36,616 nucleotides of DNA, from IMG/VR virus record IMGVR_UViG_3300045119_000125, positions 1-36,616 of that record; one strand, given 5' to 3'. Both the position numbers and the translations under genes were made by a program. Origin of the DNA: a virus. Of the stretch, positions 1,060 to 36,582 are shown piece after piece; the first letter of the stretch is position 1; every line of letters starts with the position of its first letter. The notes beneath the pieces are model-generated. The model saw only the letters and a list, made by a program, of their open reading frames with translations, ran no database searches and had not been told where the DNA came from.

Positions 1060-2460
1060 ATGATCCCGACTGCAGCCGATGCACTTCCGTTCAGCTTTTC
1101 CCCGCTCTTCGATGCACAGCGCGACGTGTTCGCGCATTATTTTCCGACCTTCCCACTGTCGATCGACAATCGAGCGCCGCTCGCCGATTACTACAATACG
1201 CAGTATCTGAGCCCCGCAGGCGAGTCGGGCAAGTGGAAGGCGCAGGGCGGATTTCTGCGCTCGCGACCGCTGCCCGTCGCGCCGAACGCATCGAACACGA
1301 GAGCAGTGTTCTGCACGGCGAACATGCAGCGCGAAGTTCAGCTCGCGATCTCGCGAGGCTTGACCGGTTTCTGCCACGATCTCTTGAGCGTGAACGATGC
1401 GATGACGGGCACGCTGCCGTGGATGCTGAGCGCAGCAGCTGCCGTTGATACGCGATTTAAGATCGTGCCCATGTTCGATATGAACTCGCTCGGCGCGAGC
1501 TTCACGACTGATCAAGCGCTAGCGATTCTTGAACTCGTCGCCGCGTCGCCGGTCGCAAAGCGTCTGCGCGATGGGCGCATGCTGTTCTCAGCGTATAACG
1601 CCCCGGCAAAGTCGCTTCCGTGGTGGCAGTCGCTGATCGCTGCCGCGAACGCGCAGCGCTTGAGCGTCGCATTCTTGCCGGTACTCGTCGGTGGGCCGAA
1701 CGATGCAGGCACGCTCAACGCAATCTCGTGGGGCGTCGGCGCGTGGGGCACTGCGACGCCGTCGCCGAGCGCTGCGCTCAACCCGACGAAGGCTCACGCG
1801 GCGGGGCTTAAGTTCATGTCGCCGATCGACCCGCAGCAGTCGCGACCGAAGTCGAGCATCTACTGGGAAGCCTCGAACTTGCTGACGTTCATCAACGCGT
1901 GGACGGCGACTATCTCGACGGGCTGCGATCTCGTGCAGTTCGTGACCTGGAATGACTACAGCGAAGCGTCGCAGCTCGCGCCGGTCACCGATGCGACGTT
2001 CAATCAATCGCTCGGCACGGGCTTTTTCGATCTCACTGCGTTCTATGCGACGTGGTTCGCGACCGGCGTCGCGCCCGTGATCACGCGCGACGTGCTGTAT
2101 TTCTGCCATCGTCGTCACCCCTCGAACGCTGCGCATCCGAATCAAGCGAACAATTTCGCCCCGGCTGCGGGCACGGGCGCAGCCGAGGACAGCATCGAGC
2201 TGCTCGCGTTTCTGACCGACGCGGGCACGATCAAGATCAACGCGCATGCGCAAGCGGTTCCGGCTGGGATCTCAGCGTTTAAAGTGCCGCTCGAAGCCGG
2301 GGTGCCGGTGTTCGCTCTGCAGCGCAACGGCTCTGATGTCTTCAGCTGTGCGGGCCCCGCGCAGATCTATGACGCTGCGGGCATGCCGTCCGGTCTGCTC
2401 GACATGACCTACCTGTCGGGGAGCGTGAGTCTGCAAGGGCTCGCGGCGTACAGTTGGTGA
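1060..2460 (+). CDS. Glycoside hydrolase family 71-like protein (alpha-1,3-glucanase/mutanase homologue)
   Basis: The 466-residue product resembles GH71, whose members hydrolyse alpha-1,3-glucan. Visible family-like features in order are VFAHYFPTFPLSIDN near residues 23-37, AISRGLTGFCHDL near 97-109, FKIVPMFDMNSLGAS near 134-148 (the DMN carries the conserved acidic residue), WEASN near 270, and TWNDYSEASQLAP near 295-307 (the WNDY-S/G-E signature). The last 130 residues look like an added beta-rich domain. There is no signal peptide or membrane segment. A strong ribosome-binding site (CAGGAG) precedes the ATG. It sits in an early operon between tiny genes and a recombination exonuclease, an unexpected place for a glycanase. 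Catalytic activity is not established; it could be a capsule depolymerase delivered at lysis. Confidence 0.7.
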   Translation: MIPTAADALPFSFSPLFDAQRDVFAHYFPTFPLSIDNRAPLADYYNTQYLSPAGESGKWKAQGGFLRSRPLPVAPNASNTRAVFCTANMQREVQLAISRGLTGFCHDLLSVNDAMTGTLPWMLSAAAAVDTRFKIVPMFDMNSLGASFTTDQALAILELVAASPVAKRLRDGRMLFSAYNAPAKSLPWWQSLIAAANAQRLSVAFLPVLVGGPNDAGTLNAISWGVGAWGTATPSPSAALNPTKAHAAGLKFMSPIDPQQSRPKSSIYWEASNLLTFINAWTATISTGCDLVQFVTWNDYSEASQLAPVTDATFNQSLGTGFFDLTAFYATWFATGVAPVITRDVLYFCHRRHPSNAAHPNQANNFAPAAGTGAAEDSIELLAFLTDAGTIKINAHAQAVPAGISAFKVPLEAGVPVFALQRNGSDVFSCAGPAQIYDAAGMPSGLLDMTYLSGSVSLQGLAAYSW

Positions 2461-23778: not shown

Positions 23779-24014
23779 GTGTCCGCTCCGACCGCAGACA
23801 GAGGTTCAGGCTCGTTACCGATATCTAGTCGGACGGTTGTTCCTGAACTTGTCTGCGGCGCGCCCGAAGGCGCTAGCGGCTTCGCGGTGGTGTATGAAAT
23901 CGAGATCGGCTGACGACGACGATTCGCCGCCATTCTCTGTTCGAGCTGCTCCAGTCGAGCACGTATCGCGACGGGCATGTGGGCGCGGATCCGCTTGCAG
24001 TGACCGCAGCTCAT
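23775..24014 (-). CDS. Small protein of the connector region (79 aa)
   Basis: ATG at 24014 overlaps the upstream stop (ATGA), and the stop overlaps the next TTG start. The product opens MSCGHCKRIRAHMPVAIRAR, with a CxxC motif, a helical basic middle (LEQLEQRMAANRRRQPI) and a loose Ser/Thr/Pro-rich tail. The same position holds small zinc-knuckle-like proteins in some phages, but I cannot name a family. It may stabilise the head-tail joint. Confidence 0.6.
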   Translation of the reverse strand: MSCGHCKRIRAHMPVAIRARLEQLEQRMAANRRRQPISISYTTAKPLAPSGAPQTSSGTTVRLDIGNEPEPLSAVGADT

Positions 24015-24517
24015 ACGCCCATCCCGATGCGGTACGGCGTGAGCATCTGCAGCGCAGTGTCCTCCAGCAGCTGCCACGTCTCCGTGTTGCGATCGAAGAG
24101 CTGCTCGATCTTGAGCAGGATCGCCGACTTGATGTCGCTGCGCTTCGCGTCGCTGTCGTCCTGCATGATCGGGTTCTGATTCTTCCAGTGATCGCGCCAC
24201 TGCTCATCGGTCCAGTTCCCGCTGCCCGGTATGCCAGGAAGCCCACCGATCACGAAGGGTCGATCTCCAGGCTCGACGAAGACGCCATCTTTCGCCGGAG
24301 AGTCCACCGGGTTCGGCAGCGGCACCCCTTCGTCAGCCGGAGGCGAGTCGAGTTCCATCAGCTGACCGATCGAGCGCTGCGTATAGTTTTCCGCCCAGCT
24401 CACAGCCGCATTGATCAGCAGCTGAATGCGCCGATCGTGAATCGTTAAGCCCTCGTCGATCGACAGCTGATCTTTCGCGTCTTGCAGCGTGATGAAAATC
24501 CGGGGCGAGTTGCTCAT
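24011..24517 (-). CDS. Head-tail connector protein, gp6-like (168 aa)
   Basis: ATG at 24517 overlaps the preceding stop (ATGA); a slightly earlier in-frame codon is not needed. The N-terminus reads FITLQDAKDQLSIDEGLTIH and continues DRRIQLLINAAVSWAENYTQ, the gp6/QLRG-type signature (L-x-x-A-K-x-x-L then I-x-x-L-I-x-A-A). The C-terminal DIKSAILLKIEQLFDRNTET is the second conserved helix. A Pro/Gly-rich insertion of about 45 residues separates them. It is the first connector gene after the sugar-modification block. Confidence 0.85.
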   Translation of the reverse strand: MSNSPRIFITLQDAKDQLSIDEGLTIHDRRIQLLINAAVSWAENYTQRSIGQLMELDSPPADEGVPLPNPVDSPAKDGVFVEPGDRPFVIGGLPGIPGSGNWTDEQWRDHWKNQNPIMQDDSDAKRSDIKSAILLKIEQLFDRNTETWQLLEDTALQMLTPYRIGMGV

Positions 24518-25257
24518 CGATAGTGCTCCGCGATCCACTTATGCTTTCGCTGTATGTGGACGTCCCAGGGGTCGACATGCCCGTGCATTATCACTATTTT
24601 CGCCGTGGGGGGAAGGACCCCGCCCGCAGGCATGATCTGATTGCGATACGAATACACCCCATCGGCCTTCGTAAACTTCGCCTCGTGAGGCCCGAGACAC
24701 GCGCCGATCCACGCTTGATCGCTGCCGATGTATTTCAGCTGCAGCCCGAGCGCGGGGCTCGTGTAGGGGTCGAACTTCTCCCACAGCTGGGGTCGAGCGC
24801 CCGCCTTGTGATAGATCAGCGAGCCGTTGTAGGGGGTGCCTCGCGCAGTGTCGCCGTACATCTTGAAATCAATATCGGTCTCAAAAAGCGAGGTGATTTC
24901 CCGGCAGATAACCACGTCAAGATCGATCGAGCAGATGCGGGGCCCGAACAACTCGCCAGCTCCGCGAGAGAACATCTTAAGTCGCCGATAGCACGAGGGG
25001 TTGAGCCCACGGTGCGGGCTTGGAATGTTGGCATAGTCGCTCCACAGCTTGATGATACGAACGCGCGGATCGATACCGCCAGGATCGTCGGTGACGCAGA
25101 CCAACTCGAAGGGCTTCAAGTAATGCCGCGAGAGCATGTTGAAAAGCACGTTTACGGTGTCGGGCGAGAACTTCGAGCGATACCCGACCATGGGCTTCCA
25201 CTTCCAGCAGACGAAGGTCAGCCGATCTTTCGCTGCGACATTGAGCTGCGCGTTCAA
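24514..25257 (-). CDS. GT8-like glycosyltransferase (247 aa)
   Basis: A TTG start at 25257 is supported by GGAGG at good spacing and a TTGA overlap with the previous stop. The GT-A pattern is visible: LTFVCWKWKPMVGYRSKF at the N-terminus, CYRRLKMFSRGAGELFGPRI before ICSIDLDVVI with the DxD (D112, D114), then YNGSLIYHKAG and YIGSDQAWIGACLG, ending in a conserved HGHVDPWD. Enzymes of this shape move a sugar from a nucleotide donor. The acceptor cannot be predicted; it lies in a block with five other modification genes. Confidence 0.75.
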   Translation of the reverse strand: MNAQLNVAAKDRLTFVCWKWKPMVGYRSKFSPDTVNVLFNMLSRHYLKPFELVCVTDDPGGIDPRVRIIKLWSDYANIPSPHRGLNPSCYRRLKMFSRGAGELFGPRICSIDLDVVICREITSLFETDIDFKMYGDTARGTPYNGSLIYHKAGARPQLWEKFDPYTSPALGLQLKYIGSDQAWIGACLGPHEAKFTKADGVYSYRNQIMPAGGVLPPTAKIVIMHGHVDPWDVHIQRKHKWIAEHYR

Positions 25258-25979
25258 GGGAAAATCCTCCGATAAGGAAAGCTCAGGTTCAGCGGGCGCC
25301 AGTCGAGATCGCGGCCGCGCTCGACCTTGATGCGCTGAATAGCGCCGACATCCTCGGGCGCACCCTTACGAACATACGTCGTCGTGCTCGCGTCGCTGAT
25401 CGTCGAGCGGGGCACGCGATAGATCGAGCTGTCGAGCATCACGGGCTCGCCCGACTGACGCACCAAGCGATCGCGAAACTCGGCGTCCGTGCCGTAGTGA
25501 CCGGCAAAGCGCTCATCGTATCCGCCGATTTTCCAGTACAGCTCGCGCGACATGAGCCACGTGTTCGGGTGCGGCTTGTACGGGCTGCGCTCGTCGGGCA
25601 GTGCGTCGAGCGTCTCACGCGTGAATCGATACGCGCGCAGCGCGTCGAGCTTGTGCGCGATCAGCCACTCGAACGTCGAGCACGGCACGAGATGATCGAT
25701 GTCGGTCAAGAGCAGCCAGCGCGCTGTCGAATGATGCGCCGCAATGTTGCGGGCGGCGTCTTGATTCCAGCGCACATCGACGTCGATGCGAAAGATCGTC
25801 AGAGGACAGCCGATAGGCGCAGCCCTGGCCTCGCCATTGGGAGATCCGTCGTCGGTGATCAGAACCTCAAGCCGATCGAGAACGCCTTGGGGAAAGCTCC
25901 GTAGTCGGTCGAGCTGCTCATCGAGCATGCCCTGATTCATGTAATACGGCATGCAGAGCGCAATCAAACGGCTTGGCAT
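25254..25979 (-). CDS. GT2-family glycosyltransferase (241 aa)
   Basis: ATG at 25979 is preferred because the protein then begins with LIALCMPYYMNQGMLDEQLD, the first strand and helix of a GT-A fold. RWNQDAARNIAAHHSTARWL precedes LLLTDIDHLVP, with the DxD at 93-95, and the C-terminal part has GYDERFAGHYGTDAEFRDRL, the family's acceptor-side motif. It resembles the GT2/GT7-like enzymes found in other phages near structural genes. It overlaps the upstream gene by 16 bases and the downstream one by four. Confidence 0.8.
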   Translation of the reverse strand: MPSRLIALCMPYYMNQGMLDEQLDRLRSFPQGVLDRLEVLITDDGSPNGEARAAPIGCPLTIFRIDVDVRWNQDAARNIAAHHSTARWLLLTDIDHLVPCSTFEWLIAHKLDALRAYRFTRETLDALPDERSPYKPHPNTWLMSRELYWKIGGYDERFAGHYGTDAEFRDRLVRQSGEPVMLDSSIYRVPRSTISDASTTTYVRKGAPEDVGAIQRIKVERGRDLDWRPLNLSFPYRRIFP

Positions 25980-26599
25980 TCGACCTCCAGCTGACGGGGT
26001 GAGAGTGGCAGAAAGGGCAGACGAAACGTGTTCTCGCAGACGATGCGCGTGAGCACCCCCGCAGCGCGCAGCTGCTGCGACGCCTCGGAGAACTGTAGCG
26101 ACCACTCGTCGAGCCGCTTCGCGCCGGTCGATGTCTTCGACCAGGAGTAAGGCGGGTACCAGTGCGCTTCATCGTGCGGGCCGCGCTTCATGTCGAAGCC
26201 GACGAGATAGAGCTGCTTCGGTCGCATCTGATAGGCCAAGTTCAGGGCGCAAAAGCCCGAGTGGGTGCCGTTCAGCTTGCCGCGCTCATCGCTCAACGTG
26301 GTCGATTCGTGATCGCAATCAAATAGCTCGACGTCCATGCTGTCGAGGTTCAGCGGGTTGGTGAGCACGGCGCGCAGATCGCCCTTGACCGCTTGCGAGC
26401 GAAGCCAGATCGGCTTGCCGAACTTCGACACTTGCGCGAAACGATGCTCCATCCACAACCGATCCATGCTCACGATCGCATCGACGCGTGGCGCATAGAT
26501 CGCAGCGTCATTGACCGCGATCACGTAGCCCGGCAATCGGCGCAGATTCACGCGCGACGCTGACCAACCGCCCGCGACGATCGTCACCGATTCTTTCAT
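25964..26599 (-). CDS. DUF115/GT42-like Rossmann-fold protein (211 aa), paralogue of the frameshifted gene
   Basis: ATG at 26599 overlaps the methyltransferase stop (ATGA); a longer open frame lies over that gene and is disregarded. The protein starts with a Gly-rich loop, SVTIVAGGWSAS, followed by VIAVNDAAIYAPRVDAIVSM and later GTHSGFCALNLAYQMRPKQL and YLVGFDMKRG...HW. This layout (G-x-G/S-x-S near the start, then SG-x-x-A-x-x-x-A and L-x-G-x-D) is shared with DUF115 and GT42-type sialyltransferase-like proteins, so a sugar- or nucleotide-binding role is likely. It is a diverged copy of the -1 frame product at 28345-29043. Confidence 0.65.
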   Translation of the reverse strand: MKESVTIVAGGWSASRVNLRRLPGYVIAVNDAAIYAPRVDAIVSMDRLWMEHRFAQVSKFGKPIWLRSQAVKGDLRAVLTNPLNLDSMDVELFDCDHESTTLSDERGKLNGTHSGFCALNLAYQMRPKQLYLVGFDMKRGPHDEAHWYPPYSWSKTSTGAKRLDEWSLQFSEASQQLRAAGVLTRIVCENTFRLPFLPLSPRQLEVECQAV

Positions 26600-27234
26600 G
26601 CGGTGTAACTCATGGTCTCGAATTTGATGCCCCAGTGAACGCGCATCGGCGAGCTGAACGCTTTCGACAGCTCGCGCTGATACGCAAAGGCGATTCCGGG
26701 GTTTCCCTTCGCGCCGCCGCGCACATCGACGATGATCTGCGTTTGCCCCTTGATCGAGCAGCTCTTGACGAAATCGATGTAGCGCGAAGGTGGGTAGTGA
26801 AAGCACCAACTTTTGAGCGAGATCACGAGATCATAAAAATGCGGCGCGCGAGGCGCTTCAGGTCTGATCGCGTGAATGCGCTCGACGCCGTTCAGCTGCA
26901 GAAAATTGCGGGCGATATCGAAGTTCGAGAAGGTCTCGGCGTGGTTCGTCATCTGCGGCAGATCATCGACGCCATCGAGCAGCGACACGCTGCAGCCGCC
27001 GCCGTAGTGACGATTGAGCAAGATGTTGATCCCTCCCATGCCTCCGCCGATGTCGAGAATCGTGTCGCAGCGCTTCGGCAGGAACGGCTCGATCGAGCGA
27101 AACTCGCTCGCGAGCATCTCGGCATACTTGCCGAGCCAGAGCGCGCGATCGTCCTTCATATCATCGAGCGCCCCGCGCTGCTGCACGAGATACGGGTACA
27201 CAAAATCCGGCACCGCAATTTCGTGACTGATCAT
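26596..27234 (-). CDS. Class I SAM-dependent methyltransferase (212 aa)
   Basis: ATG at 27234 overlaps the upstream stop (ATGA). Motif I is clear: CDTILDIGGGMGGINILL near 56-73, with the acidic end of strand 2 at SVSLLDGVDD. The N-terminal 50 residues are a helical lid (KYAEMLASEFRSIEPFLPK). The later YDLVISLKSWCFHYPPSRYI fits motif IV with an altered catalytic sequence. It resembles small phage or sugar O-methyltransferases more than DNA methylases: no DPPY or PC motif is visible. Methylation of a transferred sugar is the best guess. Confidence 0.78.
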   Translation of the reverse strand: MISHEIAVPDFVYPYLVQQRGALDDMKDDRALWLGKYAEMLASEFRSIEPFLPKRCDTILDIGGGMGGINILLNRHYGGGCSVSLLDGVDDLPQMTNHAETFSNFDIARNFLQLNGVERIHAIRPEAPRAPHFYDLVISLKSWCFHYPPSRYIDFVKSCSIKGQTQIIVDVRGGAKGNPGIAFAYQRELSKAFSSPMRVHWGIKFETMSYTA

Positions 27235-28412
27235 TTCAGCGCGACGATCGTCACGGACTTGCTGCCGTTCGTCAGCTGAGTGATCGACCACCCTATCGCG
27301 TTGAGTTTGCGCTCCCACCAATGTGCGTCATGCAGCGACAGGTGGGCATTGCGCCCGTCCGGAAGGATCGCATTCGCAGGCTTGGTGTCGATCACGAAGT
27401 AGGCGACGCGACCCGTCAAGCGATGCACGTGATCGAGCACCGCGTCGAGCTTCTCGGGCTCGACGTGCTCCAGGACGTCGGTGCAGACCACCATGTCGCA
27501 GGGCTTAGGCATTTTCTCGCGCCCGATGATTCCGGGGTCATACCCCGAGATGCGAAATTCTGCCGCCAGCGAGTCGGCCAGCTTGTTCTCGCCGCAGCCA
27601 TAGTCCAGAACGGTCTTCGGCTGATACTGCGCATGCAGCGCTCGAACGGCGTCGGTGTGCTTCGCCCCGTCTGCGCCCCATTTTTGCTTGCGATGCAGCT
27701 CGACGAGCTGATCGCGATAAACGCTGCTCGTGAGATCGTCCGCGCCGTATCGATACGCGCCTGCATGTCGCATGAACATCCCAATGTGGCCCAAGTCGAG
27801 CGCGTGAATGCCTTTTTTCGAGAGCCGATAGGCCAGCACCGTCGCGCACGTGCCGAGACAGAGTAGGACACGCGCCGAGGTTTTGCCAATCTGCTCCTCC
27901 AGCTGATCGATCACAGCGTAGGCGTGCTGACGAGGGCCGATCACTTCGCGCACCGACTTCGCCTCGCTGCCGATCATCTCGGTGGTGATGCTTTTCTTGT
28001 CGCCGCTCACGAGCACGATGTCTTGATCGCGCCAGAGTTCGCGAACCTCATTCCAATACGCGGGGGTATCGATCCACGGCGCGTTGTCGGGGCGCGTGAT
28101 GAAGCTCGATGCATAGGTTTTCGCGCCGAGCAGCGATGAGAACTGCGGCCCGGTATATTTGAGCCAGCTCTCGCGGCGCGGTGCGCCCTCGATCGCGAAC
28201 GGGTTCGGCAATCCGACGAGACAATCGCCGGGCTTTTTGAGCACTTCCTGCAGCTCCTGCGCGAGTCCTCGCTCAGCACGCTGCGACGTGCATGCGCCGC
28301 CGATCGCGCAGCGCCACTCGCCGTCGCCGAATCGTGCGATCGACCTATGGCTGCACTCGATCAGCGTGCTCGACTCGCTCCAGATCTTCGGATACCACGG
28401 GAATTCTTTCAT
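27231..28412 (-). CDS. Fusion of GT-D-type glycosyltransferase (DUF1792-like) and SAM methyltransferase (393 aa)
   Basis: The N-terminal half has CSHRSIARFGDGEWRCAIGG near 20-39, the R-x-G-D-G-E core of the GT-D/DUF1792 fold, and DCLVGLPNPF and WRDQDIVLVSGDKKS further on. The C-terminal half, from about residue 267, is a class I methyltransferase: TVLDYGCGENKLADSLAAEF (motif I), VVCTDVLEHVEPEKLDAVLD (motif IV), and LPDGRNAHLSLHDAHWWERK near 351-370, a pattern common to phage methyltransferases. An AAGGAA ribosome-binding site precedes ATG 28412. One enzyme would add a sugar and methylate it. It overlaps the upstream gene by 68 bases. Confidence 0.75.
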   Translation of the reverse strand: MKEFPWYPKIWSESSTLIECSHRSIARFGDGEWRCAIGGACTSQRAERGLAQELQEVLKKPGDCLVGLPNPFAIEGAPRRESWLKYTGPQFSSLLGAKTYASSFITRPDNAPWIDTPAYWNEVRELWRDQDIVLVSGDKKSITTEMIGSEAKSVREVIGPRQHAYAVIDQLEEQIGKTSARVLLCLGTCATVLAYRLSKKGIHALDLGHIGMFMRHAGAYRYGADDLTSSVYRDQLVELHRKQKWGADGAKHTDAVRALHAQYQPKTVLDYGCGENKLADSLAAEFRISGYDPGIIGREKMPKPCDMVVCTDVLEHVEPEKLDAVLDHVHRLTGRVAYFVIDTKPANAILPDGRNAHLSLHDAHWWERKLNAIGWSITQLTNGSKSVTIVALK

Positions 28413-29237
28413 CGGGAAGTTCCTTGTCGATCGTCGATCGTCTGAAGCATTGCAGCGCCGACTGTCGCGAGCAGTTCACGACCTCGACGCCCTTGTCGCT
28501 CAAGCCCTTCGCGAGCTTGCCCATCGCGACGAGCCAGCCGGAATAGCGCGAGCCGTTTCCGAGCCCCTTCGGGTGATCTCCGTGCCAGTGGGACTTGCCG
28601 TTCGTGCGCTGCATGTCGAAGCCGAGCAGGATCATTTTCTTCACGCCCCAGACGTAGGCCAAGCTCATCGCTTGATACCCCGAGTTGCGCCCGGTGTGAA
28701 TGTGCGCGAGATCCGGCGAGAGCCCCTCGCGATCGGCCCCGAAGATCCAGTGCAGACCGTAGCGATCGCGCGCCGCGTTGCTGACCGTCCACAGCTCGCC
28801 GCGAAAGCCGCGCGCGACTTGGGGGAAGTACGCATTCCACCACGTCGTATCGCAAGCGTAGAGAACGTCGGCCCATGGCGCGAGTAGAAAGCTCGTGTTT
28901 ACGACTATGGTTTTACAGCGGGTGCGCGCGTGCTCGGCGTCCGCTTTCGTAAGCGACGGGCCGCTCGCGATAATGCAGACGGTCTCTCCGGCCCATCGTC
29001 CTGTGGCTTTTCCGTATCGGACGGGGGCGGCGGCTCCGTTTCGTTTTTTTTTAACGGTGCGCCGGGGATCACCTGACGTCGATCGGGCTGTCGCAGCTCG
29101 CTCTTGTCGGGCTTGATCTCTTCCGCCATCAGCTTGCTGACCAGATACACGCCGTAGCTCTGCTCAGCGGTGAAGATCTCGCCGATGCGTATCGGACCGT
29201 AGCGACTCTCGAAGCGTTTCAACGCTCGCACTTGCAT
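28345..29237 (-). CDS. Frameshift fusion: small post-capsid protein joined to DUF115/GT42-like protein (about 297 aa)
   Basis: The frame open from 29043 down to 28345 encodes a convincing domain: RWAGETVCIIASGPSLTKAD, then NTSFLLAPWADVLYACDTTW, GRNSGYQAMSLAYVWGVKKM and ILLGFDMQRTNGKSHWHGDH. It has no ATG, GTG or TTG before the one at 28668, which would remove the Gly-rich nucleotide loop. The upstream 110-codon frame has a canonical A_AAA_AAC heptamer at 29043-29049 that shifts -1 exactly into it. The predicted product is 65 codons of the small protein plus 232 residues. The alternative is a homopolymer error in the assembly. Confidence 0.65.
28905..29237 (-). CDS. Small protein after the capsid gene (unshifted product, 110 aa)
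   Basis: ATG at 29237 follows GAAGGAAA at good spacing and comes after the capsid-gene terminator, so an earlier in-frame codon at 29366 is rejected. Residues 1-45 (MQVRALKRFESRYGPIRIGE and YLVSKLMAEEIKP) resemble small post-capsid proteins of other siphophages that begin with a beta hairpin. Beyond residue 65 the frame is a disordered, Pro/Arg-rich tail (NETEPPPPSDTEK, then ALSRAARRLRKRTPSTRAP) which overlaps the real coding frame of the next domain, so this tail may be rarely made. Confidence 0.6.
   Translation of the reverse strand: MQVRALKRFESRYGPIRIGEIFTAEQSYGVYLVSKLMAEEIKPDKSELRQPDRRQVIPGAPLKKNETEPPPPSDTEKPQDDGPERPSALSRAARRLRKRTPSTRAPAVKP
29043..29052 (-). promoter_or_regulatory. Candidate -1 frameshift or transcriptional slippage site (nine-A run with A_AAA_AAC)
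   Basis: The - strand has nine A followed by CGA. In the 110-codon frame the codons are TTA AAA AAA AAC, so the heptamer A_AAA_AAC is in the correct phase. A -1 shift continues with CGA AAC GGA into the DUF115/GT42-like frame. A nine-A run can also cause RNA polymerase slippage. Only a small potential hairpin (CCGT/ACGG) is seen downstream. Confidence 0.6.
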
Positions 29238-29379: not shown

Positions 29380-30720
29380 TCAGCTGCTGTGACCGGCGGG
29401 GAACGCACCGAACACGAACGCCTTCGGTCGCGCCACCGCGAGCGCGAGACGCTCTTCGCACAAGATCGTCACCATGTTGCGCGTGAAATTGTCGTTATCC
29501 TCATTGCTCACGAGGATCTGCGCCACTTCGCGATCGAAGATTGTCGCCGCCAACTTGAACGCACCGACCAAGAAATCTCCGGCTGCCATCGAATAGCACT
29601 GCACGACCGGCACGCCCCATAACATCGGCGGCGTGTTCGTCGAAGGCACTGCGAGGATGTACCGACCGAAGCTGTCCTTCGTCAGCTCGAGGGTGTGCCA
29701 GTCAGTCGGCGAGAGCACGATGCCCGTCGTCGGGTAAAAGGCCAACTGAACCTGCAGCATCGCGTGACGCAGAATGTCGATCATCGTGTCGCCGCTCTTA
29801 TCGAATGCGGTCGAGAACGAGGTCGCCTGCGGCACCAACCCGAGCAGATTGTCGCCGTTGCCGTCGCCGAACATGATCTGCTTTTCCTCTTCGAGCTTGA
29901 GCCCGAACTGCAGACGGCCGTTGATCAGCGTCGCGAGCTGCTTGAAGTCGGCGAGGATCTGCTTCGAGGCTTTGATCCAATGCGCGATCGTCTGCACCGG
30001 CACGGTCAGACGCGAGTAGGTGATATCGGATTGCGGCTTGACCGCACCTTCCGAGACCACATTCGCCGCGTTCGTGAACACGTTCTCGGCCACCCACTCG
30101 ATCAAGTTCGTTTCGGTCGTGCCCTGATCGAGCAGATCGCGAACCACCAACGGCTGAAACGCCGGGATCACGGGAGTCGGGAGGAACTCAGGGAACGCAC
30201 CCGCGCCGCCCGATGTCGAGCCGCTCGTGATGTTTTTCATTCGCACGGCGACGCTGTGCCGAATGTTATGGCCCTTCTCGTGAAACTCCTTGAACTCGGG
30301 GCTCTCGATGAAGATCTGACCGGGCGTCTTCGCTTTCACATTGCGACCGGCCATACCGGCGAAGCCCGTCAGGATCTGCTGCTCCAGCGAGAGAATGCGC
30401 GCGTCTTGCTTCTCGCGTGCTGCTTTCAGCTCGCCGAACAATGGGCCACCGGTCTTGTTCAGATCCGCGACTGCTTGCTTGGTCGACTCTTGGATCTCGC
30501 CGAATGTTTTGATATCGGCCTGCGTCTTCGTGATGACCTCGCCGACTTCCTTGAAGTGCTTCGAGAGCGCGGCTTCGATCTTCGCCATGATCTTCGCTTC
30601 ATCGTCAGCGTCGGCCAGCGCCATCGGGCCGCTGTAGTGAAAGCCCTCGCTGTGCAGAATGGCGCTCGTCGCCATGTCGATCACGCCACGCGTGATGATT
30701 CGTCGGGAATTGCGGGACAT
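29380..30720 (-). CDS. Major capsid protein, HK97-like (446 aa)
   Basis: ATG at 30720 follows TAGGAGCACC at ideal spacing. The N-terminal 135 residues are a coiled-coil delta (scaffold) domain (EAKIMAKIEAALSKHFKEVG), probably removed by the protease encoded upstream, and the mature HK97-fold part follows. Recognisable stretches are PVIPAFQPLVVRDLLDQG near 183-200, AHWIKASKQILADFKQLATL near 247-266, FGDGNGDNLLGLVPQATS near 286-303 and the C-terminal EERLALAVARPKAFVFGAF. It forms the icosahedral shell. Confidence 0.93.
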   Translation of the reverse strand: MSRNSRRIITRGVIDMATSAILHSEGFHYSGPMALADADDEAKIMAKIEAALSKHFKEVGEVITKTQADIKTFGEIQESTKQAVADLNKTGGPLFGELKAAREKQDARILSLEQQILTGFAGMAGRNVKAKTPGQIFIESPEFKEFHEKGHNIRHSVAVRMKNITSGSTSGGAGAFPEFLPTPVIPAFQPLVVRDLLDQGTTETNLIEWVAENVFTNAANVVSEGAVKPQSDITYSRLTVPVQTIAHWIKASKQILADFKQLATLINGRLQFGLKLEEEKQIMFGDGNGDNLLGLVPQATSFSTAFDKSGDTMIDILRHAMLQVQLAFYPTTGIVLSPTDWHTLELTKDSFGRYILAVPSTNTPPMLWGVPVVQCYSMAAGDFLVGAFKLAATIFDREVAQILVSNEDNDNFTRNMVTILCEERLALAVARPKAFVFGAFPAGHSS

Positions 30721-34987: not shown

Positions 34988-35875
34988 TCAGTGCGCGGAA
35001 ACGCCAGCGGGAGCGCGTCTCACTATCGCCATTCCGTAGTTATCGACGCCCTCGGGCAGCGTGAGCCCCTCTTTCAGCACGAGCTGCGTTCGCTGGAACG
35101 GCCTGTAGTTGATCTCGTGGTGGATGCGCTGAAATTTCCAGGTCAATCGAGTCACGTCGGGGTGCATCGCGACGAGCATCTCGCTTTTCGCTCGCGTGCC
35201 CTCCTTCGCGTAAAATTCCTCCGTGTTGCCGCCCTTGACCGTCTGCGTTCGCATCTTGGACTGCAGAAACGCGTTGAACTGCACCGTGCACCAGTTGCGC
35301 TTGAGCATGCGCAGGCTCAAGTCGGTGTCTTCGTTATAGCGACCGCGCCACCTGAAATCGACATCGTTTCTGATCAAGTTGCAGCTGTAGATGCGCGTAT
35401 TCGTGATGAACGGCGGCAGCTTTTGCTTTTGCTTAGCGAAAAAGAGGTAGTTCGGCCCCGCCATCGCGACATTGCGATACCTCAAGCAGAAATCTTCCAT
35501 GACTCTGAAGCAGGTTCCGTCGCTGACGCGCACTTTCAGATTGCGATTCAGCCGATAAAAGCAGCGAATATTGTCGTCCATGACCCAGTGCCACGCTGCT
35601 TGGTGCTTGATCGAATGCTCCCAGGCGAAGTTTCGAGCAGGCCCCGGACCCTTCGACTTTGAATCGCCGAGTCGATCGCACGTGTCATACCGTTCCTGGT
35701 AGCGTTTCGGCAGCACGAGCAAGCGATCGCGAGCGATCACAGCTGCGTAGGCGTCAAACTCCTGCTCTTCGATGATCACGAAGTAATCGACGCGCAGCTC
35801 GTCGAGCGCTTTGACGGTCATGCGCGAGTCCGCGCGACCCTTGCTGACGATGTAGATCGGGAACTGCGGCTTCAC
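34988..35875 (-). CDS. TAGT-like (TET-associated/GREB1-type) glycosyltransferase (295 aa)
   Basis: GTG at 35875 overlaps the upstream stop (GTGA). The N-terminus is FPIYIVSKGRADSRMTVKAL, then a strand-helix pattern with VDYFVIIEEQEFDAYAAV. WHWVMDDNIRCFYRLN carries the metal-binding DD (100-101), and RYNEDTDLSLRMLKRNW (E182, D183, D185) the acceptor-side acidic motif. This matches what I know of the phage TET-associated glycosyltransferase family, which is thought to add sugars to oxidised methyl-pyrimidines in DNA. No TET-like oxygenase lies in this window. It sits between a ParB-like gene and the terminase. Confidence 0.75.
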   Translation of the reverse strand: MKPQFPIYIVSKGRADSRMTVKALDELRVDYFVIIEEQEFDAYAAVIARDRLLVLPKRYQERYDTCDRLGDSKSKGPGPARNFAWEHSIKHQAAWHWVMDDNIRCFYRLNRNLKVRVSDGTCFRVMEDFCLRYRNVAMAGPNYLFFAKQKQKLPPFITNTRIYSCNLIRNDVDFRWRGRYNEDTDLSLRMLKRNWCTVQFNAFLQSKMRTQTVKGGNTEEFYAKEGTRAKSEMLVAMHPDVTRLTWKFQRIHHEINYRPFQRTQLVLKEGLTLPEGVDNYGMAIVRRAPAGVSAH

Positions 35876-36582
35876 GGCTTCGCGTCAGCTGCGCCCTCGA
35901 GCGACTCGACTCGCTGATCCTTGAGCACGTTTTTCTTGTCGATCGGGTGCCAAATGTACTTCGTCAGCGGCGTGAGCTGCTGCTTCACGAGCTTCGCGAA
36001 CGCTTGCACGTCCTTCTCGGTGCGAAAATGCACGATGATCGAGCGAAAGGCCATGCGATCGGGCTGATTGAACTCGGGCATGCCGCGCGCAAAGTGCCCT
36101 TGCGGGTCGAGTGGGTCGGCGTTCGGGGCCCACAATCGAGCGAGATCAGCGTCAGAAAAGCCGACGAGCGTCGTGTCGAATGCGTTGAGCTTCATCCATT
36201 CGACCTCTTCGCCGAGCTTGAGCATGTCCCAGTCAGCGTTCAGCGCGAGCTGATTGTCAGCGATCACGTACTGACGACGGGTGTCGGCGTCCATCCAGTC
36301 GGCGACGATGCACGGCGCAAATTCGAGGCCTAACTCCTGCGCTGCGAGCAGTCGACCGTGACCGGCGATGATCTCGCCGTCTGCTGAGATCAGAATCGGC
36401 ACTGTCCAGCCGAAGCGCTCGATCGAGCGAGCGAGCTGCGCGATCTGCACCGGGCTGTGCATGCGCGAGTTGCGCTCGAACGGTTTCAAGCTCTCGATCG
36501 CTCTCGATTCGATCGTTTTCGAGACGCTCAGCGGCGCTTTGGCGCTCAAGCTGCCCCCCTGGGCTTCAAATTCGCGACCCAC
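35872..36582 (-). CDS. ParB/sulfiredoxin-fold N-terminal domain protein (236 aa)
   Basis: Residues 25-110 form a ParB-like domain: NSRMHSPVQIAQLARSIERF near 38-57, VPILISADGEIIAGHGRLLA near 61-80 (the GHGR at 74-77 is the nucleotide-binding core) and LGLEFAPCIVADWMD. The C-terminal third (FRSIIVHFRTEKDVQAFAKL and WHPIDKKN) is a small domain seen in other phage proteins. There is no centromere-binding helix-turn-helix, so it is not a full partition ParB. GTG at 36582 is the longest start but has poor spacing; TTG at 36549 after GGGGGG is an alternative. It leads the leftward operon in this window. Confidence 0.8.
   Translation of the reverse strand: MGREFEAQGGSLSAKAPLSVSKTIESRAIESLKPFERNSRMHSPVQIAQLARSIERFGWTVPILISADGEIIAGHGRLLAAQELGLEFAPCIVADWMDADTRRQYVIADNQLALNADWDMLKLGEEVEWMKLNAFDTTLVGFSDADLARLWAPNADPLDPQGHFARGMPEFNQPDRMAFRSIIVHFRTEKDVQAFAKLVKQQLTPLTKYIWHPIDKKNVLKDQRVESLEGAADAKP

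Follow-up and report, generated by a model that had tools for sequence, protein, structure and literature searches.

How does a phage translate a glycosyltransferase gene that has no start codon of its own, and what does the enzyme decorate? The question is raised by a block of six putative glycosylation and methylation genes on the minus strand of IMG/VR record IMGVR_UViG_3300045119_000125, the whole of which (36,616 bases) was analyzed and is referred to here as the window. The block lies between the genes for the major capsid protein (MCP) and a gp6-like head-tail connector. Its first glycosyltransferase (GT), DUF115a, is very likely produced by -1 frameshifting out of a small open reading frame (ORF) directly behind the MCP gene, as judged from sequence comparisons. 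We propose, with a probability of roughly 0.6, that through this frameshift a protein glycosyltransferase is anchored to the head as it assembles, where the products of the block would make a methylated glycan.

Reading frame of the first glycosyltransferase

The DUF115a frame is open from 29163 to 28345, and the earliest ATG, GTG, or TTG in it occurs mid-domain. It is in the -1 frame relative to a 110-codon ORF (29237 to 28905), with which it overlaps deeply. An earlier note on this DNA had placed the start of the block at 29237, but the ATG there belongs to the small ORF, which is in another frame, and not to the glycosyltransferase. The overlap reads TTA AAA AAA AAC, which includes an A_AAA_AAC heptamer in the correct phase (an A9 run at 29044 to 29052, followed by C). 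A frameshifted product initiated at 29237 is predicted to have 297 amino acids. No ATG, GTG, or TTG precedes the conserved GRW..TVCIIASGPS motif in the GT frame of the window, of Tetraselmis viridis virus S20/SI1 (NC_020840, HQ632857-8; here S20), or of Pseudomonas phage Psp6, and in the window, S20, and many other loci CTG, ATT, ATC, and ATA are also absent before this motif.

To survey the arrangement, 154 GT loci were collected from IMG/VR, one genome scan, and annotated phages, and a profile of the small domain was built. A scan of IMG/VR with the single GT protein gave no matches; an alignment query gave about 590. Of the loci with the small domain upstream, 89 had the GT at -1 and 1 had it in the same frame; none had it at +1, and in 1 it was a separate gene. 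Dereplication at 80% left 57 loci of the -1 type (57, 0, and 1 for -1, +1, and in frame, respectively). The -1 pattern was also found in Pseudomonas phages D3 and Psp6 and in prophages. The GT relative of PAJU2 (L005 2974-3543) has its own start, does not follow this type of MCP gene, and is annotated as a "structural protein."

In-phase heptamers of the form X_XXY_YYZ were present in 37 of the 57 loci, versus 14.8±3.1 expected when the zero-frame codons were shuffled. The enrichment was stronger for A/T-type heptamers, which slip best (30 of 57 observed versus 4.2±1.9 expected; z 13.6, although the loci are related, so that z-scores are not strict probabilities). Heptamer counts by phase were 51/17/7, and heptamer density was about 3.4 per 100 codons versus 0.19 in neighboring structural and GT genes, a difference of about 18-fold. 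Slip sequences in the same phase in relatives include G_GGA_AAA, C_CCA_AAA, C_CCT_TTG (S20), and T_TTT_TTG (Psp6). Prophage loci L103, L105, L108, L112, L119, L128, and others have the GT in the -1 frame and an overlap that contains no canonical heptamer. The GRW..TVC.IASGPS stretch just ahead of the core is conserved in the GT frame even though it has no preceding start codon. Furthermore, the small domain and the GT are fused in a single frame in at least two loci, L034 and L076 (hhalign E 5e-8 and 5e-6); by eye, L080 and L090 may be further cases. L083 was discounted as a natural in-frame fusion due to a weak match only. The frame counts, the enrichment of in-phase heptamers, the start-less conserved motif, and the in-frame fusions together make -1 frameshifting very likely.

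Several observations weigh against this interpretation. A canonical heptamer is absent from the overlap in 20 of the 57 dereplicated loci. The D3 group carries C_CCA_AAG but also a GTG able to start the GT. The RNA downstream of the slip site folds no better than shuffled sequences (z +0.3 to -1.9), which gives no support to downstream structure as a stimulator of slipping. No start codon precedes the GT core in 45 of the 57 loci, but about 41 would be start-less by chance in a GC-rich -1 frame. The lack of starts was thus rejected as a sign of selection; it shows only that no start is available within the frame itself.

Some of these points would be expected if the GT were started separately, at a nonstandard codon or by reinitiation, with the overlap reflecting gene packing. 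The GTG of the D3-type phages, the 12 of 57 loci with some start codon, and the loci that lack a classic heptamer fit this possibility. However, it is quite improbable, given that neither standard nor near-standard start codons precede the motif in the window, S20, and many other loci, that all 57 overlapping loci have the GT at -1, that in-phase heptamers are strongly enriched, and that in-frame fusions exist.

It is also possible, but improbable, that the fusion in the window phage arises by transcriptional rather than ribosomal slippage at the A9 run. Such a run is long enough for polymerase slippage, and L011, the closest relative, also carries an A-run. However, the slip sites of the other relatives are not long homopolymers; the feature that they have in common is the tandem-slip heptamer. 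Least credible is a broken gene or an assembly error at the A9 homopolymer. Runs of this kind are error-prone, and A/T runs of at least 7 occur only three times in the window. This explanation is already contradicted because relatives share the architecture: 57 dereplicated loci, drawn from unrelated assemblies, show the same -1 layout, as do the isolates S20, D3, and Psp6, and most of these have other slip sequences.

Predicted folds and a proposed mechanism

Sequence-profile searches of the PDB with the small domain and with the GT gave no significant match, so predicted folds were needed. The small ORF consists of a domain of about 45 residues resembling the C-terminal domain (CTD) of lambda gpFI, followed by a proline-rich linker. 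The AlphaFold2 (AF2) model of the domain (pLDDT 83) is beta-rich with one main helix and matched the gpFI CTD (2lsm) with Z 4.6 and a root mean square deviation of 1.1 Å over 41 residues; YqbF (2hjq) was among its Foldseek matches. The position of the small ORF directly after the MCP gene and its small size are also as for gpFI-like proteins. Counting the other way, ribosomal L9-N and GINS domains tied with 2lsm, which indicates a common small fold, and hhalign to lambda FI gave a weak match (E 0.0017, probability 15%). The likeness to gpFI proposed here is drawn from fold, position, and this weak sequence match. Mu gp35 and TP901-1 ORF37, considered as sequence homologues of the small domain, had no significant likeness to it.

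The AF2 model of DUF115a (pLDDT 88) had as its best match the MAF structure 5mu5 (Z 16.4, 3.1 Å, 185 residues), followed by the Cst-I/II sialyltransferases (Z 12 to 13; Cst-I 12.8). Its score against PF01973 (25.2 bits) did not reach the curated cut-off (34.6). Therefore, DUF115a is classified as MAF/GT42-like by fold rather than as a member of PF01973. PHROGs labels the phage GT family "alpha-2,3-sialyltransferase." The database entries for the "sialyltransferase" of S20 (L002 6455-6925) and of vB_Pae_U7 (L009 3142-3546) have internal ATGs as their starts and thus leave out the conserved motif at the N terminus. If the frameshift reading is correct, the first GT is truncated at internal starts in these and other annotations, which would need correction.

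In the proposed mechanism, a programmed -1 slip at A_AAA_AAC would extend a minority of the gpFI-like protein at its C terminus by a MAF-like glycosyltransferase, and most ribosomes would make the 110-residue small protein alone. The gpFI-like domain would dock on the MCP. With the enzyme held there while the head assembles, the first sugar would go onto a Ser/Thr residue in a head protein; by family precedent this sugar might be a nonulosonic acid. DUF115b, GT-D, GT2, and the GT8-like enzyme would then extend the glycan, and the two methyltransferases would cap it. There is about an even chance that this is general, with an unannotated, conserved -1 frameshift in many tailed phages, mostly of Pseudomonadota, joining a MAF-type GT to a domain like that of a capsid chaperone. 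The shell would then be glycosylated in situ as it assembles, with the slip fixing the ratio. On this view, the six-gene block would be an elaborated form that makes a methylated oligosaccharide. In D3 (L004 4885-6280) and Psp6 (L006 3903-5319) a conserved hypothetical gene and a methyltransferase gene lie near the GT in the head module, possibly as a minimal form of the same pathway.

The six-gene block and its target

On the minus strand the gene order is TerS, TerL, portal, protease, MCP, the block, gp6-like connector, head completion, gp10-like, and tape measure, and then DUF2460, gp84_N hub, NlpC/P60, and Phage-tail_3 with Rcc01698_C. The latter four bear out the RcGTA-like order of the late operon that the earlier note had described. 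The placement of six modification genes between the MCP and connector genes also held (Table 1). They occupy 24514 to about 29042. Matches in Pfam or PHROGs support five of the six, whereas that of the second methyltransferase is weak. A function in glycosyl and methyl modification and late coexpression with structural genes are likewise supported. The junctions from DUF115a/GT-D to GT2/GT8 overlap by 68, 4, 4, 16, and 4 nucleotides, and GT8/connector by 4. Overlaps are thus present at the later junctions (4 to 68 nucleotides), but the suggestion that they couple translation does not hold for the first gene, where recoding would be required. Elsewhere in the window, in the apparent early region, a glycosyl hydrolase family 71 domain (1060-2460, plus strand; E 3.5e-30) is unusual.

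Table 1. Positions of the block, the candidate slip site, and the flanking head genes in the window (SAM, S-adenosylmethionine)
Feature	Position	Strand	Basis
HK97-fold major capsid protein, immediately upstream of block	29380..30720	-	Phage_capsid PF05065 E 1.5e-50
Zero-frame small ORF, 110 codons, overlapping GT frame	28905..29237	-	phrog_2616 E 3.6e-5; AF2 model
Candidate -1 slippery heptamer A_AAA_AAC	29043..29049	-	Sequence; in-phase heptamers enriched in relatives
Glycosyltransferase DUF115a (MAF/GT42 fold), -1 frame	28345..29042	-	PHROG 4603 E 1.1e-51; PF01973 E 1.6e-5, below cut-off
GT-D glycosyltransferase fused to SAM methyltransferase	27231..28412	-	PF08759 102 bits and Methyltransf_23 42 bits, both above cut-off
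Probable SAM methyltransferase (MT2)	26596..27234	-	Weak PF13489 E 0.04; motif LDIGGG; block-conserved in relatives
Second DUF115/GT42-like glycosyltransferase (DUF115b)	25964..26599	-	phrog_4603 E 7.8e-19; hhalign to DUF115a probability 98.6
GT2-type glycosyltransferase	25254..25979	-	PF00535/PF10111 above cut-off
GT8-like glycosyltransferase	24514..25257	-	Only phrog_1962 "glycosyltransferase" E 2.6e-8; 52% identity to S20 homologue
gp6-like head-tail connector, directly downstream of block	24011..24517	-	Phage_connect_1 PF05135 E 2e-5, above cut-off; phrog_40

Relatives of the block were sought in IMG/VR with the GT-D/methyltransferase fusion, which yielded 24 loci at 41 to 72% identity. 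The order MCP, DUF115a, GT-D/methyltransferase, methyltransferase, DUF115b, GT2, GT8, connector was identical in nine contigs (L133 to L136, L140 to L142, L145, and L146), so that the same block was found at the same site in nine more IMG/VR contigs and, as a variant, in S20. L138 and its near-duplicates fall short only in having no detectable MT2, and L148, L151, and L152 keep the gene order but have additional genes or a connector that is different or was not detected. The arrangement is not a matter of chance because the order recurs in independent contigs at 44 to 74% identity. The block site is directly behind the MCP gene in every contig with the full block. S20 resembles the window in site and -1 architecture but differs in that GT-D and the methyltransferase are two genes and there are extra FkbM and GT2 genes. 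In S20, as in L143 and L150, the connector lies between DUF115a and GT-D. Therefore, DUF115a stays with the MCP, and the remainder of the block behaves like a cassette.

Whether a virion protein or the packaged DNA is decorated had been left undecided, and the evidence now favors a head protein. If the frameshift occurs, a head protein is probably the glycan target because of the predicted fusion to a head-module domain, the MAF fold, the O-glycosylation of protein by GT-D, and the occurrence of the block in full-length contigs in which the TET and TAGT genes searched for were not found. GT-D/DUF1792 puts glucose on the protein Fap1 (PMC5063993).

Alternatively, the block might decorate a hypermodified base of packaged DNA together with a TAGT-type glycosyltransferase. 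The window does encode such an enzyme (34988-35875, minus strand; PF20691 E 1.7e-42), which adjoins the small terminase gene and lies beside a ParB-like gene, and its family is named for glycosylation of 5-hydroxymethylcytosine in DNA. This gene counts against a head protein as the sole target, and the window DNA could therefore be glycosylated as well. However, a DNA target for the block is unlikely. Of 35 other records that carry the block or the frameshift GT, many of them contigs of about 37 to 45 kb, just 1 contained TAGT; TET (Tet_JBP) was detected in none of the 35 and not in the window, in a weak search that gave no match in any control genome. In addition, the nearest folds are sialyl and MAF transferases, and through the frameshift the GT would be linked to a domain that resembles head-binding ones and is encoded next to the MCP. 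TAGT is also present in the contig of L015 (L157). The ParB_N protein (35872-36582, minus strand) is at the contig edge, and the N-terminal part of DNA methyltransferase phrog_498 also matched there.

Phage glycosyltransferases often target O-antigen or capsule. The genes might thus modify the host surface, for superinfection exclusion or serotype conversion, and their location in the head operon might be accidental. This seems very improbable because the site behind the MCP is constant in full-block contigs, the first GT would be joined to a capsid-module domain by recoding or is joined to one in frame, and no flippase-like gene was recognized within the block.

Comparison with known systems

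If a head-tethered glycosyltransferase is indeed made in this way, the system would parallel, in a phage, the Gag-Pol logic of retroviruses: frameshifting would attach an enzyme to a fixed minority of the copies of a capsid-binding domain. Glycosylated heads would then be expected in a large group of phages. To our knowledge, the virions of these phages have not previously been examined for glycans. The laboratory phage D3 is included among them, so the proposal is directly testable.

Frameshifting in the tail and capsid genes of phages is already known, and so is glycosylation of their capsids. The literature searched, from which subscription papers were mostly absent, contained no description of a frameshift that fuses a glycosyltransferase to a head-module protein; novelty is thus unproven. 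We know of no frameshift fusion in the glycosylation of mycobacteriophage virions. In mycobacteriophages such as Che8 and Rita (Freeman 2023), which have other hosts than the phages considered here, phage-encoded glycosyltransferases are associated with glycans on the major capsid protein (PMC11256854).

MAF enzymes attach nonulosonic acids in O-linkage to flagellins (PMC11339370). DUF115a shares its predicted GT fold with these flagellin glycosyltransferases (PF01973) and with the GT42 enzymes Cst-I/II. However, it lacks the extra N- and C-terminal domains of MAF and has the gpFI-like domain in front instead.

Lambda gpFI is reported to work via the major head protein (PMC7889075; PMC4493119). 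The small domain resembles the family of lambda gpFI, HI1506 (FluMu_N), YqbF, and TP901-1 MCP3 in its position directly after the MCP, its size, and perhaps its predicted fold. Popovic et al. proposed a frameshift joining the TP901-1 relative of gpFI to a head protein, but Western blots revealed no second band (PMC4493119). In contrast to that family, the domain here would also serve as the N terminus of a glycosyltransferase through the predicted -1 frameshift.

Frameshifting is known in structural genes of phages, as in lambda G/GT, the capsid and tail genes of A2 and Listeria phages, and the T3 coat (PMC5009743). In those systems, as would be the case here, one N terminus is given two C termini, often through a -1 slip at X_XXY_YYZ. 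The difference is in what is added: a chaperone or Ig-like extension in the known cases and, as predicted here, a glycosyltransferase.

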